This document shows, in pieces, positions 19,888 to 27,319 of a DNA stretch of 64,000 bases. This DNA comes from Actinomycetes bacterium (GTDB taxonomy: Bacteria; Actinomycetota; Acidimicrobiia; Acidimicrobiales; Ilumatobacteraceae). The DNA lies in the NCBI GenBank assembly GCA_021414085.1, contig JAIOPC010000017.1, positions 124,001 through 188,000 on the forward strand, in the 5' to 3' direction. Position 1 is the stretch's first letter. Each line of letters opens with the position of its first letter. Under the pieces are notes generated by a model. That model searched no databases. It was not told where the DNA came from and saw only the letters and a list, made by a program, of their open reading frames with translations. A program made the position numbers and the translations under genes.

Positions 19888-21288
19888 GTGGCATCCGTGA
19901 GCGCTTCGGGACAGGTGTGGCAGGTGGAACAGGTGCTCGCGCTCGCACCCAAGCCGTCGTCGGTCACCGCCGCCCAACCGCTTGCCGTTCCAACTCGCTG
20001 GGCGGGTACGGGTTGCGATGCCCGCGCAGTCTGGGGCCGGTGCACCGGCGGCAGCGCCGAGCCGTACGAGTGCGTCGTCGATCACGTCGGCGTCGCGTTC
20101 AAGTGCAGTTGCCCCAGCCGCATCTTCCCGTGCAAGCACGCGCTCGCGCTGTTGCTGCTGTGGGCGCGAGGGCAGGTGCCGTCGGGTGATCCGCCGGGCT
20201 TCGCTACCACGTGGGTTGCGAATCGTCCTGACCCCGCGTCGAAAGCGCCACCACAAGTCGCAGCTGCTCCAACACCCGACACCGCGCCTCACAAGGAGTC
20301 AGCACCGGCTCCGGTGCCCGAGCGCGATCCGACGACAACTCGAGACGATCGCGTTGCACGCATGGCTGCCGGACTTGCCGAACTCGATCGTTGGCTTGAG
20401 GATCGCGTGCGCACCGGGCTAGGCGACCCAGTGCTGGCGCAGTACGCGACGTGGGATGAGCTGGCTGCGCGTTTGGTCGATGCGCAAGTCGGCGGGCTGG
20501 CGAATCGCGTGCGTCGGCTTGCAGGCATGGTCGGCGCACATCCCGATTGGCATCAACACGTGCTCGCCGAGTTGGGCACACTGCATCTGTTGGCGTCGGC
20601 CGGCCGACAACTTGGTTCGTTGTCGCCGAAACTTGCCGACTCTGTTGCGGCGACTATCGGTTGGCAGGTTCGCCAGGCCGACGTGATGGCGGGCGTGCCG
20701 CACACCGATCACTGGGCGGTGATGGGTCGCAGCGACACTCGCGAAGATCGCATCGAGGTGCGCCGCATTTGGCTGCGGGGCATGCGCTCCGGCGATTGGG
20801 CGATGGCGCTGTCGTTCGCTGCGTACGGGCAAAGCCTCGACGCAACGTTGCCGGTTGGCTCGGTCGTGCATGCCGATCTGTTTCGGTATCCCGGCGCGCT
20901 CGGCCTGCGCGTGTTGCTCGGTCTACGCCATGGCGAGTTGGCGTTCGACGGCGACGCGCTCGTCGCGAGCTCAGTCGCCGAAGCGTGTGCGCAGGTCGGT
21001 GCTGCGATCGCCGCCGAGCCGTGGATCGAGCGCTATCCCGTGTGTGTACTTGCCGCGCCGGCCCGTCGTGGCAATCGTTGGTTCCTCACCGATGGCACCG
21101 GCTCGGTGCCGCTGGTCGAAGGCGTCGTCGGTATCGGCGCGTTGCTTGCCTGTAGTGGCGGGCAATCGATCGCGATCACTGCCGAGTGGACGCCGTACGG
21201 GTTGGTGCCGCTCACGGTGCATCTCGCCGATCGTGTGGTCGATGTCGGCCCAACCGCCGACCCGAGTTTCTTGGCAGCCAGCGCATGA
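19888..21288 (+). CDS. SWIM zinc-finger protein of the Yeh-type MoxR/VWA cluster
   Basis: 466 residues with the SWIM motif CxCx(n)CxH at about residues 72-85 ('KCSCPSRIFPCKHALALLLL'). SWIM fingers bind DNA or protein. The remainder is helical then mixed alpha/beta without recognised catalytic residues. Start is a GTG at 19888 (another GTG three codons on is possible). It is the first gene of a coupled chain SWIM / DUF5691 / MoxR ATPase / DUF5682 / VWA, which corresponds in content to E. coli yehQ, yehL, yehM and yehP. The stop overlaps the next ATG (ATGA). Confidence 0.85.
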   Translation: MASVSASGQVWQVEQVLALAPKPSSVTAAQPLAVPTRWAGTGCDARAVWGRCTGGSAEPYECVVDHVGVAFKCSCPSRIFPCKHALALLLLWARGQVPSGDPPGFATTWVANRPDPASKAPPQVAAAPTPDTAPHKESAPAPVPERDPTTTRDDRVARMAAGLAELDRWLEDRVRTGLGDPVLAQYATWDELAARLVDAQVGGLANRVRRLAGMVGAHPDWHQHVLAELGTLHLLASAGRQLGSLSPKLADSVAATIGWQVRQADVMAGVPHTDHWAVMGRSDTREDRIEVRRIWLRGMRSGDWAMALSFAAYGQSLDATLPVGSVVHADLFRYPGALGLRVLLGLRHGELAFDGDALVASSVAEACAQVGAAIAAEPWIERYPVCVLAAPARRGNRWFLTDGTGSVPLVEGVVGIGALLACSGGQSIAITAEWTPYGLVPLTVHLADRVVDVGPTADPSFLAASA

Positions 21289-22097
21289 GTAACGCGGTCG
21301 ACGAGTACTGGAACCAGATGGTCACGGTCGCGCTGCTCGGCACCGATCGCCGCGAGCCACCATCGCCACCAACTGGCGGGCTCGCCGACATCGCGGCCGA
21401 CGATCCCCAGCCGACTCCATCGCAGCGACTGCTGCAACAGGTCGCCGCCACAACTGTCGTGCGGCGCTCCGGGTTGCTTCCGGGTACGTCGATCGCGACG
21501 GTCGCGCCACCGGCGGAAGATGCCCGCCCGATTACTCCCGCGGCGGCGACGAATACGTGGCGGCGCATCGTGGCCGACTGGCCGGTGCTGGAAGACGAGT
21601 GGGTGCTCACCGTCGTGCGTGTAGGCCGTCGCTTGGCACCGGAGCTCGTCTCGCCCTCGCTTGCTCGGCATCGCACCGACGCAACACGTCACGCTCGCGC
21701 GATGGCGGCTGCCGGTCCGCTGGGCAACTGGATGATCGACTGGTCACCCCGGCTCGCGTGTACCGCCAAGCAGTCGGCGGCCACGGCAGCTGCAATCGAG
21801 ATGGCCGCGGAACTGCCGCCGCTGCCGATCGTTCCTGAGCTTGAGGCGCTGCTGAGTGCGAAGCCCGCTGACGTGGCGCGCATTTTGGCTGGCGGATTGG
21901 CGAGTGCGCAGTTCGGCACGCCGCATCGTGCCGTTCTGGTGAACCTGCTGGCACGCATCTCGCCCGCCTCGCTGCCTGCTGTCGCGAAAGCGATTGATCG
22001 TGTCGACCCCTCTTCGCCATCGATCGGCCTTGCGTTTGCACTCGCCGATCTCGCTCACCTTCGCCACCACATGCTCACTGAACTGGAGCTTGCATGA
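21285..22097 (+). CDS. DUF5691-type protein
   Basis: 270 residues, starting at an ATG that overlaps the SWIM stop. The opening 'WNQMVTVALLGTDRREPP' is the signature I associate with DUF5691 proteins next to SWIM and MoxR genes. The rest is alpha-helical and Ala/Leu-rich ('LEALLSAKPADVARILAGG', 'ISPASLPAVAKAIDRVDPSS'), as in helical-repeat scaffolds. No enzyme motif is visible. It probably works in the same complex or pathway as its operon partners. Confidence 0.78.
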   Translation: MSNAVDEYWNQMVTVALLGTDRREPPSPPTGGLADIAADDPQPTPSQRLLQQVAATTVVRRSGLLPGTSIATVAPPAEDARPITPAAATNTWRRIVADWPVLEDEWVLTVVRVGRRLAPELVSPSLARHRTDATRHARAMAAAGPLGNWMIDWSPRLACTAKQSAATAAAIEMAAELPPLPIVPELEALLSAKPADVARILAGGLASAQFGTPHRAVLVNLLARISPASLPAVAKAIDRVDPSSPSIGLAFALADLAHLRHHMLTELELA

Positions 22098-23185
22098 GTA
22101 AGCAGTCACCGCAATCCATCCTGCGACCGCACGCCGAGCAAGAGTTCGCTCACGAACTCGCCGCCCTAGCCAAGGCCGACGATCGCGAGCGACCACCCAG
22201 TTGGAAGCTTTCTCCGTGGGCGGTCGTCACCTACGTGCTCGGCGGCCAACTTGCGGATGGCACGGTGATCTCACCGAAGTATGTCGGTCGTCGTCGTCTC
22301 GTTGAGATCGCAGTTGCAACACTCGCCACCGATCGGGCGCTGCTGCTGCTTGGCGTTCCGGGCACTGCCAAGACGTGGCTCAGCGAACACCTCGCGGCGG
22401 CCATCAGTGGCGACTCCACCCTGCTCGTACAAGGCACCGCTGGAACCGCCGAGGAGCAACTGCGCTACGGCTGGAACTATGCGCGGCTGCTTGCCGAAGG
22501 CCCGAGCGTCGCGGCGCTCGTACCTAGCCCGATCTACCGCGCAATGGAGCATGGCTCGATCGCACGCGTCGAAGAACTGACGCGCATGCCGAGCGATGTG
22601 CAAGACGCGCTCGTCACGGTGCTCAGCGAGAAAACCTTGCCGCTTCCCGAGTTGGGTAGCGAGGTGCAGGCTGTTGCCGGCTTCAACGTCATCGCGACTG
22701 CGAACGATCGCGATCGGGGAGTGAACGATCTATCAGCAGCGCTGCGGCGGCGCTTCAACACCGTGGTGCTGCCGCTGCCGACCGACATCGAGGAAGAGGT
22801 CGCGATTGTGGAGCGTCGCGTCGCCGAGCTCGGGGCTGCCTTGCGGTTACCAACCGTGCCCGCTGCCAACGACGAGATCCGACGCGTGGTCACGGTGTTT
22901 CGCGAACTGCGTGCCGGGGCCACCGAGGATGGGCGCACAAGCCTGAAGGTGCCGACGGGTTCGCTATCGACAGCGGAAGCGATCTCGGTGATCACCAACG
23001 GCGTCGCGCTGGCTGCCCACTTCGGGAACGGCAAGCTCACTTCGGCCGATGTCGCGGCGGGCATCGTCGGCGCGGTCGTGAAGGATCCGGTGCACGACTC
23101 GGTGGCGTGGCGTGAGTACTTGGAAGCAGTGGTGCGCGATCGCTCCGACTGGACCGAGTTCTACGAGGCCTGCCGCGAGTTATGA
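22094..23185 (+). CDS. MoxR-family AAA+ ATPase (YehL-like)
   Basis: 363 residues. Walker A 'LLGVPGTAKTWLSEHLA' (about residues 79-95), a Walker B/sensor area ('IARVEELTRMPSDVQDALVTVLSE' in part, 'FNVIATANDRDRGVNDLSAALRRRF' in part) and the arginine-containing 'LRRRFNTVVLPLP' are the MoxR layout. MoxR ATPases act as chaperones with VWA partners to insert or activate cofactor proteins, and in some systems in defence. It starts at ATG overlapping the DUF5691 stop. Its own stop lies in an ATGA whose ATG now starts nothing, because vapBC follows. Confidence 0.93.
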   Translation: MSKQSPQSILRPHAEQEFAHELAALAKADDRERPPSWKLSPWAVVTYVLGGQLADGTVISPKYVGRRRLVEIAVATLATDRALLLLGVPGTAKTWLSEHLAAAISGDSTLLVQGTAGTAEEQLRYGWNYARLLAEGPSVAALVPSPIYRAMEHGSIARVEELTRMPSDVQDALVTVLSEKTLPLPELGSEVQAVAGFNVIATANDRDRGVNDLSAALRRRFNTVVLPLPTDIEEEVAIVERRVAELGAALRLPTVPAANDEIRRVVTVFRELRAGATEDGRTSLKVPTGSLSTAEAISVITNGVALAAHFGNGKLTSADVAAGIVGAVVKDPVHDSVAWREYLEAVVRDRSDWTEFYEACREL

Positions 23186-23188
23186 CGG

Positions 23189-23218
23189 TTTACAGATATC
23201 TAGAAAGATAGGTAGAAT
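23189..23218 (+). promoter_or_regulatory. vapBC promoter, predicted to give a leaderless mRNA
   Basis: A -35-like TTTACA (23189-23194) and a -10-like TAGAAT (23213-23218) with an 18-base spacer. The predicted start point, about seven bases past the -10, coincides with the vapB ATG at 23225, and no Shine-Dalgarno precedes it. The region is far richer in A/T than the flanking operon. Confidence 0.6.
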
Positions 23219-23224
23219 TCTAGA
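23194..23224. promoter_or_regulatory. vapBC operator with nested palindromes
   Basis: AGATATCT (23194-23201) and the inverted pair TCTAGAA (23199-23205) / TTCTAGA (23218-23224) lie over the promoter and end directly before the vapB ATG. VapB-VapC complexes usually autorepress through such palindromes. Confidence 0.55.
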
Positions 23225-23470
23225 ATGGCACTCAGCATCAAGAACGACAAAGCGGACCAGTTGGCTAGGGAACTGTCGGAGCTGACCGGTGAGTCTCTGA
23301 CCGAGGCGGTCATCAATGCTTTGGAACAGCGGCTGGAGAGTGAGCGGCGGGCGCAGGTTCGACGGAGGTCGCTCGCAGACATCCTTGCTGTTGCGCACTC
23401 CCTGCCGATTCTTGATCACCGGACCACGGACGAGATTCTTGGCTACGACGAAAACGGTCTGCCGTCGTGA
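23225..23470 (+). CDS. vapB: VapB-type antitoxin
   Basis: 81 residues opening with 'MALSIKNDKADQLARELSELTGESLTEAVINALEQRL' (in part), the typical Rv0623-like/PSK-type VapB antitoxin N-terminus that forms the ribbon-helix-helix DNA-binding dimer. The C-terminal part ('SLADILAVAHSLPILDHR', 'DEILGYDENGLPS') is the toxin-binding tail. It overlaps vapC by GTGA. The pair sits inside an otherwise tightly coupled MoxR/VWA operon, with its own A/T-rich promoter, which suggests insertion. Confidence 0.9.
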   Translation: MALSIKNDKADQLARELSELTGESLTEAVINALEQRLESERRAQVRRRSLADILAVAHSLPILDHRTTDEILGYDENGLPS

Positions 23471-23862
23471 CGATCATCGACTCGTCGGCGCTAGTCGCCG
23501 TGCTTCTCGCCGAACCGGGTTGGGAGGAGTTGCAACGACACCTCGAACAACCAGGGGTCTACAGACTGAGCGCAGTCACTCTCGTGGAAGCGGCGATTGT
23601 GGTCGAAGCCCGGCTCGGCATGACTGGCCGCGCCCAACTCGACATGTTGCTCAGGCGAATCGGTGCAGAGGTACGTCCGGTTGATGCTCAGCTCGCCGCG
23701 ACTGCGATTGAGGGTTGGCGACGATACGGCCGCGGGCGGCATCAGGCGAGATTGAATTTCGGGGACTGCTTCTCGTATGCACTCGCTGCCGAATTGGGCG
23801 AGGAGTTGCTGTTCGTGGGCAACGACTTCGCGCAAACGGATGTAGTGGCCGCGATGACATGA
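23467..23862 (+). CDS. vapC: VapC-type PIN-domain ribonuclease toxin
   Basis: 131 residues with the four acidic PIN positions: 'MTIIDSSALVAVL' (Asp), 'VTLVEAAIVVEAR' (Glu), 'NFGDCFSYALA' (Asp) and 'FVGNDFAQTD' (Asp). It starts at a GTG overlapping the vapB stop. VapC toxins cut tRNA or rRNA and are held inactive by VapB. Its stop overlaps the ATG of the DUF5682 gene (ATGA), so downstream operon genes remain translationally coupled to the toxin. Confidence 0.93.
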   Translation: MTIIDSSALVAVLLAEPGWEELQRHLEQPGVYRLSAVTLVEAAIVVEARLGMTGRAQLDMLLRRIGAEVRPVDAQLAATAIEGWRRYGRGRHQARLNFGDCFSYALAAELGEELLFVGNDFAQTDVVAAMT

Positions 23863-26102
23863 CCGCCAGCACAGCCGCTATCGCGCAGGCCGTCCACTCG
23901 TCGGTGGTTCATCTCTTGGGCGTTCGACATCACGGTCCTGGTTCGGCGCGCTCGGTTGTGCGCGTACTCGACGAACTGCAGCCCGACGTCGTATTGGTCG
24001 AGTTGCCCGCCGACTGCGAGAGCACGTTGAAATGGGTCGGTCACCAACACCTTGTTCCGCCTGTCGCGCTGCTCGGGTATGTGGTTGATCAACCCAACCG
24101 AGCCGTCTTCTTGCCCTTCGCCGAGTTCAGCCCCGAGTGGCAGGCGTTTAGCTGGGCCGCGCGGCACAGCGTCCCCGTGCGTGCCATCGATCTGCCGCTC
24201 GCGATTTCGTTGGCCGACAACGCTGGCGAAGGCGCCGCGTCCGGCGAGCTGCGACTTGTTGATCACCCTGTCGGCGACCCACTCGCAGCGCTCGCCGCTG
24301 CTGCCGGCGATCCAGACCCCGAGCGCTGGTGGGACGACGTCATCGAACATCGCGGCGATGGCGCGCCCGCATTCGAAGCGATCGCAGAAGCGATGTCGGC
24401 TGTGCGCGGCGGCCCGGAGGCGGGCTCGCTCCGCGAAGCACGACGCGAGGCGCACATGCGCCAAGCACTTCGTCGAGCGCGCGCCGATGGCTTCGAGCGC
24501 ATTGCGGTGGTGTGCGGTGCCTGGCACGTGCCCGCACTCAGCGAGCCGCTACCGGCGGCGACGATCGATACGCAGACACTGCGCGGGCTCGCAAAAGTGA
24601 AGGTCGGCGTTTCGTGGGTGCCGTGGACGAATCGCCGGCTGGCAGCGACCACTGGTTACGGGGCAGGCGTGCGCAGCCCTGGGTGGTACGCGCACGTGTT
24701 TCGACATCCTGGCGCACCGGGAATCAGCCGCTGGTTTGTCGGCGCGGCGCGCCTGCTGCGCGACCGCGGGCTGTCGGCCAGCCCGGATCACCTGATCGCG
24801 GCCACCCGCACTGCGAGTGCTTTGGCAACGCTGCGCTTGCGTCCGCGGCCGGGGCTGGATGAAGTGCTCGACGCGGCCGACACCGTGATGGCGGGCAGTA
24901 CCGGGTTAGCGCTGATCGATCGTGAGCTCATCGTTGGCGACGCAATCGGCGAGGTGCCCGACGATGCACCGCAGGTGCCCCTTGCGCGCGACCTTGCCGC
25001 GCAACAGCGGCGCGTGCGGCTGAAGCCTTCGGCCGACGCGCAGACGATCGAGCTCGATGTGCGCACGCCCAACGGACGTGCGCGATCGGTGTTGCTGCAC
25101 CGCGTCTGCGCACTCGGCGTGCCATGGGGTTCGGTCGAGGAAGGTCGCGGAACCAGTGGAACGTTTCGTGAGACCTGGGCGTTGCGTTGGGAGCCGGAGC
25201 TCACCATCCGTGTGATCGAGCAGTCGGCCCACGGGACGACCCTCATGACTGCGGCCACGCATCGAATGCTCGAAAGGGCAGCCGATGCGACCGCGCTAGC
25301 GGATCTGGTGCAAGTCCTCGAATCAGCGCTTCTTGCCGATCTTCCCGCGGTTGTGCAACCGGTGGTCGAGCAGGTTGAAGCGCAAGCGGCGCACCACCCA
25401 GATGTGGTGCAAGTCATCGACACCTTGGGCCCGCTTGCGCGCGCATTGCGCTACGGCGATGTGCGCGGTACCGATGCGTCGTCGCTGCGGCGCGTGTTTG
25501 ATGGGGTAGTCATTCGCGTGCTCGCCGGGACGCTGATGGCATGTCGCTCGCTCGATGAGGATGCGGCGGCAGCAATGGTCGAACGGTTGGCCGGCGTGCA
25601 GGCGGCCCTGGCTCTCACCGATCATCCGGCGCGTCGCGGCGAATGGCCAGCGGTGCTCACGCTCGTGGCTGAACGCAGCGACGTGCACGGGTTGGTACAA
25701 GGCCGGGCGACGCGGTTGCTGCACGACGGCGGCACCTGGAATCGCGCGCAGGTCGGCAATCGTGTTTCGCGCGCGCTGTCGGTGGGCACGACGTCGGCGA
25801 CGAGCGCTTCGTTTGTCGAGGGCTTTGTCGCTGGCAGCGGCACGGTGTTGGTGCACGATCGCGAGCTGCTCGACGTGATCGATTCGTGGGTGTGCTCGCT
25901 GGCACCCGACGCGTTCATCGCGATTTCGCCATTGTTGCGACGCACGTTCGGCGCGTTCGAAATCGCCGAGCGCCGTCAGTTAGGCATGTTGCTCGCCAAC
26001 CAGGTCGCCACGGCGGGCGACGGATTCGGTGTCGGCATCGACGAGTCACGCGCTGCCGCAGGGCTGGCGACGGTGCGCCAGATGCTGGGTGTGCCGTCAT
26101 GA
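23859..26102 (+). CDS. DUF5682-family protein (YehM-like)
   Basis: 747 residues. The N-terminus 'VHLLGVRHHGPGSARSVVRVL' (in part), 'VVLVELPADCEST' and later 'RIAVVCGAWHVPAL' show GxxH-type motifs as in the TraB/TIKI/EreA-like fold, so a metal-dependent hydrolase-like domain is possible (inference). The second half is helical and Leu/Ala-rich. It is encoded between the MoxR ATPase and the VWA gene in Yeh-type clusters. The ATG at 23859 is set by the ATGA overlap with vapC; the longer ORF only extends into vapC in another frame. Confidence 0.85.
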   Translation: MTASTAAIAQAVHSSVVHLLGVRHHGPGSARSVVRVLDELQPDVVLVELPADCESTLKWVGHQHLVPPVALLGYVVDQPNRAVFLPFAEFSPEWQAFSWAARHSVPVRAIDLPLAISLADNAGEGAASGELRLVDHPVGDPLAALAAAAGDPDPERWWDDVIEHRGDGAPAFEAIAEAMSAVRGGPEAGSLREARREAHMRQALRRARADGFERIAVVCGAWHVPALSEPLPAATIDTQTLRGLAKVKVGVSWVPWTNRRLAATTGYGAGVRSPGWYAHVFRHPGAPGISRWFVGAARLLRDRGLSASPDHLIAATRTASALATLRLRPRPGLDEVLDAADTVMAGSTGLALIDRELIVGDAIGEVPDDAPQVPLARDLAAQQRRVRLKPSADAQTIELDVRTPNGRARSVLLHRVCALGVPWGSVEEGRGTSGTFRETWALRWEPELTIRVIEQSAHGTTLMTAATHRMLERAADATALADLVQVLESALLADLPAVVQPVVEQVEAQAAHHPDVVQVIDTLGPLARALRYGDVRGTDASSLRRVFDGVVIRVLAGTLMACRSLDEDAAAAMVERLAGVQAALALTDHPARRGEWPAVLTLVAERSDVHGLVQGRATRLLHDGGTWNRAQVGNRVSRALSVGTTSATSASFVEGFVAGSGTVLVHDRELLDVIDSWVCSLAPDAFIAISPLLRRTFGAFEIAERRQLGMLLANQVATAGDGFGVGIDESRAAAGLATVRQMLGVPS

Positions 26103-27319
26103 CTGCCGCGACCAACGCGCGGGTAAGCGATGTCGAGCGGTCGCGGCGCTGGCGGATGGTGCTCGGCGGCATCGACGAGGGCGAAACGGAACAGCCAGGG
26201 ATGACGGCCGTGCGCCTCGATGGTCACGACGCCCGTATTGATGCCGCGCTCGCGGCCCTCTACGACGCGCCGCGCGATCGGCGTGGCGGCGGCTCGCGTG
26301 CAGGCGGGCTCGGTTCCTCGGCGCCAGCCGTCGCACGGTGGCTTGGCGACATCCGTCGTTACTTCCCAACCAGCGTCGTGCAGGTACTCCAACGCGACGC
26401 CATCGATCGCTTGAAGTTGCGGCAGCTGTTGCTGGAGCCCGAGATGCTGCGGGCCGTCGAACCCGACCTTCATCTAGTGACTCTCTTGGTGGAGCTCAAC
26501 CGACTTCTCCCGGACGCGACGCGGGCTACCGCTCGCAAGGTCGTCGCGCAGGTTGTCGACCAGATCGAGCAACGCCTGGCGGCACGCACCAAGCAAGCCG
26601 TTCGTGGCGCGCTGGCCCGATCGCAGCGCACTCGTCGGCCACGGCCGAGCGATATCGATTGGGGTCGAACGATCCACGCCAACCTGCGCCACTATCTGCC
26701 TGATCAGCAAACGGTGATCCCCGAGCGGCTTGTCGGCTACGGACGTCGTCAGCGCAGCCTGGCGCGCGACGTGATCGTGGCGATCGATCAATCGGCCAGC
26801 ATGGCCGACAGCGTTGTGTACGCCTCGGTGTTCGGTGCAGTGCTGGCTTCCATCCCGGCCTTCCGCACACACGTGGTCGCGTTCGACGTTGCCGTCGCCG
26901 ACCTCACGCCCTTGTTGCACGACCCTGTGGATGTGCTGTTCGGTGTGCAACTCGGCGGTGGCACCGACATTGCGCAAGCCGTGGGCTACTGCCAACAGCT
27001 GATCACACGACCCGCCGACACGCTGCTTATCCTCGTGACGGACTTGTTTGAGGGCGGCAACGCAGCGCTACTGCACGATCGCATTGCCGCGCTGGCACAG
27101 GCGGGCGTGTGTGTGGTGGTGCTGCTCGCGCTCAGCGACGAGGGTGCGCCGGCGTACGACCACGCGCAAGCGGCTGCGCTGGCAGAGATGGGCGTGCCGT
27201 CGTTTGCGTGTACGCCCGATGCGTTCCCCGAACTGCTCGCCGCAGCACTTGAAGGTCGCGATGTCGGGCGCTGGGCCAACGAGCACGGCCTCCACACGGC
27301 CGCCGCTGTCGTGGGCTAG
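26099..27319 (+). CDS. VWA-domain protein (YehP-like), MoxR partner
   Basis: 406 residues. The C-terminal half is a von Willebrand A domain with a complete MIDAS first motif 'VIVAIDQSASMADSV' (DxSxS, about residues 222-236), the Thr in 'LGGGTDIAQAVGY' and the Asp in 'ILVTDLFEGGN'. The N-terminal half is helical and charged. VWA proteins of this type work with MoxR ATPases. It starts at ATG overlapping the DUF5682 stop and is the last gene of the cluster. Confidence 0.92.
   Translation: MTAATNARVSDVERSRRWRMVLGGIDEGETEQPGMTAVRLDGHDARIDAALAALYDAPRDRRGGGSRAGGLGSSAPAVARWLGDIRRYFPTSVVQVLQRDAIDRLKLRQLLLEPEMLRAVEPDLHLVTLLVELNRLLPDATRATARKVVAQVVDQIEQRLAARTKQAVRGALARSQRTRRPRPSDIDWGRTIHANLRHYLPDQQTVIPERLVGYGRRQRSLARDVIVAIDQSASMADSVVYASVFGAVLASIPAFRTHVVAFDVAVADLTPLLHDPVDVLFGVQLGGGTDIAQAVGYCQQLITRPADTLLILVTDLFEGGNAALLHDRIAALAQAGVCVVVLLALSDEGAPAYDHAQAAALAEMGVPSFACTPDAFPELLAAALEGRDVGRWANEHGLHTAAAVVG

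Follow-up and report, generated by a model that had tools for sequence, protein, structure and literature searches.

MoxR-type AAA+ ATPases occur with CoxE-like vWA proteins and a third component in the MoxR-vWA ternary conflict systems (VMAP, iSTAND; eLife 2020, PMC7159879). The operon described here resembles these systems in combining a MoxR ATPase, a CoxE-like vWA protein and a third component, but its third partner is a DUF5682 protein rather than VMAP, iSTAND or a beta-propeller. PMC7159879 makes no mention of DUF5682, SWIM or DUF5691, none of the papers searched contains both MoxR and DUF5682, and no PADLOC model matches the operon; its MoxR scores just under the bpMoxR cut-off (25.8 vs 27). 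The unit located between MoxR and DUF5682 recalls two other described systems. Both subunits of Mycobacterium tuberculosis VapBC30 (PDB 4XGQ/4XGR) are matched over nearly their full length, with the active-site acids kept, whereas the pair studied here lies within another operon, overlaps the next gene by 4 nt and is known from sequence. Transposons generating target-site duplications likewise leave an inserted unit between genes, framed by a short word at either end.

The window, i.e. the whole stretch of 64,000 nt analysed, contains a gene for a SWIM zinc-finger protein followed by DUF5691 upstream of MoxR, and then these features:

21285–22097, forward strand: DUF5691 protein (PF18944, E 3.4e-18), with ATGA overlaps with the SWIM-protein gene (upstream) and MoxR (downstream).
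22094–23185, forward strand: MoxR-type AAA+ ATPase (PF07728, E 3.9e-38), whose TTA TGA end supplies the left ATGAC.
23182–23186, forward strand: left ATGAC, consisting of the third base of Leu codon TTA, the stop TGA and C; it differs in the other two filled sites.
23189–23218, forward strand: predicted vapB promoter, TTTACA, 18 nt, TAGAAT (consensus scan 10/12).
23198–23224, forward strand: candidate VapB operator, two TCTAGA words (23199–23204 and 23219–23224) flanking the -10 (direct reading).
23225–23470, forward strand: vapB antitoxin, VapB30 type (PF07704, E 1.8e-25; VapB30 chain of 4XGQ, E 8e-18).
23467–23862, forward strand: vapC toxin, PIN ribonuclease by family (PF01850, E 4.2e-14; VapC30 of 4XGQ, E 1.7e-28).
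23859–26102, forward strand: DUF5682 protein (PF18934, E 3.8e-241); its start context ATGACC is the right ATGAC (23859–23863) and holds the vapC stop.
26099–27319, forward strand: CoxE-like vWA protein (PF05762, E 3.2e-51), which starts with ATGAC (26099–26103), with nothing inserted there.

Read directly, the MoxR end is TTA-TGA-C, with the TGA stop at 23185. The ATG at 23182 opens ATG ACG GTT TAC AGA TAT CTA GAA AGA TAG, a frame of nine codons and a stop. The vapB/vapC junction is a GTGA overlap (vapB 23225–23470, vapC 23467–23862), and ATGA overlaps occupy the other coupled junctions (SWIM protein/DUF5691, 21285–21288; DUF5691/MoxR, 22094–22097; DUF5682/vWA, 26099–26102). The letters, the nine-codon dead end and the ATGA at the other junctions, all reported by an earlier sequence-only reading, were borne out on re-reading.

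Judged by its domains, vapBC is an ordinary VapBC30-type type II toxin–antitoxin module, of a known kind, in a new and well-defined place. An antitoxin with an Rv0623-like (PSK_trans_fac) domain, PF07704, is encoded directly upstream of the toxin, and both solved VapBC30 chains match the pair (VapC, E 1.7e-28; VapB, E 8e-18). The vapB product is the sole PF07704 protein of the window genome. The predicted activity of VapC is that of a PIN RNase, kept in check by VapB: its acidic residues D5, E41, D100 and D120 are kept, the first three being present in 42/42 VapC homologs and D120 in 40/42. A close VapC donor was not found, the nearest VapC proteins elsewhere being ~54–60% identical. Plasmids carry many relatives, largely rhizobial, with ~51–53% identity for the best among the matches listed and no close donor. 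A phage origin was discarded, with two weak phage matches only. In the comparison of base composition proposed in the sequence-only reading, G+C of vapBC is mildly low (59–61% vs 65–67%), but GC3 is nearly equal (0.68–0.71 vs 0.72–0.76), so that composition tells little and is weak as proof of recent arrival.

Close MoxR orthologs (E <= 1e-40) were found in 58 of 201 genomes of the family. In ~50 readable junctions of this family, MoxR and DUF5682 are directly joined, with a gap usually of -4 to ~60 nt; vapBC stands at the junction only in G000, the window genome, and in the congeners G001 and G005, whose loci are apparently those labelled L073 and L074. Because the family relatives have the two genes directly joined, vapBC is, on this comparison, a genuine insertion into a conserved operon, as had been proposed. 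The contrary outcome named beforehand, vapBC always being present in relatives, is not what these ~50 junctions show. Nor does vapBC occur at the junction in ~76 other readable loci, mostly from Streptosporangiales. Toxin–antitoxin modules are easily lost, and vapBC could on that ground be ancestral in the operon and lost in most lineages. This is barely credible, since no readable junction in other genera of the family or in distant actinobacteria contains vapBC, and many precise losses would be required.

The boundaries of the unit are shared by the filled sites. In all three, the vapB ATG lies 39–45 nt after the MoxR stop and vapC overlaps DUF5682 by 4 nt; the overlapping DUF5682 start after vapC, noted in the sequence-only reading, is indeed there. 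The nearest empty sites mostly have short spacers of 6–7 nt between the MoxR stop and the DUF5682 start (G003/G009, TGA-GTCACGG-ATGACC; G008, TGA-GCCGCTC-ATGACC; G014, TGA-CCCCTC-GTGACC); among them, an overlap occurs only in G006/G013 and reads GTGAG. Relatives joined directly by ATGA had been predicted: the direct joining is there in ~50 genomes, but the nearest empty sites mostly have spacers and not ATGA overlaps.

Other occupants of the junction are few and unrelated. In G122, from another genus of the family, an unrelated M24-family peptidase lies there (L031:2598-3797; PF00557, E 4.2e-30). Nonomuraea soli and Acrocarpospora pleiomorpha (Streptosporangiales; L116, L135) have TnpB-like transposon genes between MoxR and DUF5682, the L135 junction also having a serine-resolvase-like gene; the genes of both loci were judged by eye from translations. 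With occupants so few and unrelated (M24 peptidase, TnpB-like, serine-resolvase-like), the junction was not retained as a special hotspot. In several Streptosporangiales (L088, L105, L123, L142, L148), the DUF5682 frame apparently has extended stretches of low complexity, either ahead of its N-terminal part or inside it.

ATGAC stands at 23182–23186 and 23859–23863 of the window, with a further tandem copy at 23854–23858 (GATGACATGACC) and another at the uninterrupted DUF5682/vWA junction (26099–26103). The repeat is real, and is no more than chance and coding constraint would give. Most of its five letters are fixed, because TGA is the MoxR stop and RTGA the DUF5682 start together with the vapC stop. 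The left A ends a TTA codon, in whose place most congeners have CTC, CTG or TTG. C follows the stop in 36/107 TGA-ended MoxR genes of relatives, so that a match at the fifth base is nothing unusual. ATGAC is found at the MoxR end in 7/117 relatives, window genome included; DUF5682 has an in-frame RTGAC start in 25 of 80 distinct empty junctions, and in 16 of those 25 the MoxR stop reads TGAC as well, some by direct GTGAC overlap. As empty junctions show both words without an insertion, the simplest reading of the ATGAC pair is a stop and a start codon rather than a scar.

The sequence-only reading had proposed instead that a mobile unit with its own promoter entered an ATGA overlap and duplicated the five bases ATGAC. 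The insertion itself is real, ATGAC flanks both sides in the window and GTGAC both sides in G005, but several observations make this origin very improbable. The left word varies among the filled sites (ATGAC in G000, GTGAG in G001, GTGAC in G005), its A comes from the TTA codon in the window, and most letters are fixed by coding. The MoxR ends of G001 (TTGTGAGCC) and G005 (CTGTGACGA) differ from that of the window genome, which is thus the only filled one with ATGAC on the left; on the DUF5682 side, G001 reads AATGACATGACC and G005 GGGTGACC. Close empty sites mostly hold a separate MoxR stop and DUF5682 start side by side, 6–7 nt apart, and not one shared ATGAC; neither the five-base duplication nor entry into an ATGA overlap is supported by this comparison. 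The longest flanking words are 5–8 nt and unrelated between sites: GCCGCGA, 7 nt, in G000 (shuffle P 0.02), CCGTCAGC, 8 nt, in G001 (P 0.007) and GTGAC/GGCGC, 5 nt, in G005 (P 0.70). Only CCGTCAGC, present in G001 as TGAGCCGTCAGC downstream of MoxR and as TGACCGTCAGC where DUF5682 starts, is of mild note, and comparison of flanking words gave no direct repeat common to the three sites. No terminal inverted repeat pairs the two ends of the unit, and no transposase or recombinase gene lies in it, vapBC being its only recognisable genes. Collectively, the unit differs from transposons with target-site duplication in all three respects: transposase, terminal inverted repeats and conserved duplication.

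The proposal that the inserted unit has its own promoter agrees with the prediction upstream of vapB. The -10 hexamer of TTTACA-18-TAGAAT ends 6 nt before the vapB ATG, and among 40 related vapB genes, 27 have TANNNT 5–8 nt before the start (2.5 on average in shuffled sequences, at most 10). In mycobacteria, housekeeping promoters prefer TANNNT as their -10, and leaderless mRNAs are frequent (PMC6448022). With the -10 ending 6 nt from the ATG and the TANNNT spacing kept in relatives, a leaderless promoter is therefore most likely, and vapBC probably brings its own promoter and a leaderless transcript. The two TCTAGA words around the -10 constitute a candidate VapB operator. A dyad is predicted like the promoter and conserved in spacing, and a TCTAGA-like pair also precedes the unlinked vapB genes of G003/G009. 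Across Actinomycetota, VapB30-type antitoxin genes (e.g. L046, L153, L184) have a -10-like TANNNT mostly 6–7 nt before the start codon. This pattern suggests that leaderless transcription may be a family trait of VapB30-type antitoxin genes. The vapB promoter may also drive DUF5682 and vWA.

Whether vapBC entered once or several times was approached with trees. In an operon tree of concatenated DUF5691, MoxR, DUF5682 and vWA proteins, a single branch separates the three filled genomes from the rest (76/83; seen in 82% of bootstrap trees). G011, with a MoxR ~95% identical, was left out, as its contig ends inside MoxR, no DUF5682 was found and the junction is not assembled; without it, the filled and empty states require one change on the tree, and two would be needed with G011 coded empty. 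In the VapC and VapB+VapC trees, the three filled sites are near neighbours and not a supported clade. The operon genes group G000+G001 (99/100), whereas the VapC tree groups G001+G005 (97/95). This conflict between the VapC phylogeny (L073 and L074 vs window 23467–23862) and the operon genes is a hint of exchange at the site, statistically undecided.

The main rival explanation takes up this conflict: VapBC30-type modules would have entered repeatedly or been replaced in place, the three modules being not strictly vertical. Besides the discordant topologies, VapC is very divergent (45–56% identity among filled sites, vs 91–94% for MoxR and 80–82% for DUF5682), and related VapBC pairs occur elsewhere in the congeners G003 and G009. 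However, one clade of three is not rejected (AU p 0.34 for VapC, 0.37 for VapB+VapC), nor is the operon order G000+G001 when forced on VapBC (AU p 0.18–0.20); the boundaries are the same in all three species, and rapid change of a vertically inherited toxin would be explanation enough. Repeated entry or replacement is thus rather unlikely, and it would also be unlikely for three separate insertions to have ended at one and the same base. Because the ends of the unit coincide in all three species, one insertion followed by fast VapC divergence is preferred, and a single origin of vapBC at the junction is favoured, not proven.

The explanation considered probable is a single entry of a VapBC30-type module, by illegitimate recombination rather than transposition, in an ancestor shared by the three species. 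A complete module would have arrived once in the short spacer that follows the MoxR stop and precedes DUF5682, in the ancestor of the window species and the two congeners, presumably by a microhomology-type event. The unit, ~23187–23858, would comprise operator/promoter, vapB and vapC. Its 3' breakpoint would lie at the DUF5682 start codon, with vapC stopping inside the DUF5682 RTGA, which would account for the 4-nt overlap in all three sites; VapC would then have diverged fast. Counting against this explanation are the moderate support for the filled clade, the conflict between VapC and operon topologies, the divergence of VapC and the lack of an identified donor.

In the arrangement resulting from such a single entry, vapB likely has an autorepressed, leaderless promoter to itself, and operon readthrough and vapB-promoter readthrough would both feed DUF5682 and vWA. 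A further step would make vapBC a regulated part of the operon: the autorepressed leaderless promoter and the 4-nt overlap would tie DUF5682/vWA expression to VapB/VapC status, antitoxin loss inducing the downstream half, while the module would be swapped or diversify at the site from species to species. Such a role is improbable at present.

The locus is a clean filled/empty example of a toxin–antitoxin pair inside a tightly packed operon, with the downstream start unbroken, and it shows that a target-site duplication can be mimicked by a stop and a start codon. The MoxR/DUF5682/vWA operon is uncharacterised, and the locus offers a natural variant of it whose last two genes may be served by an additional promoter.
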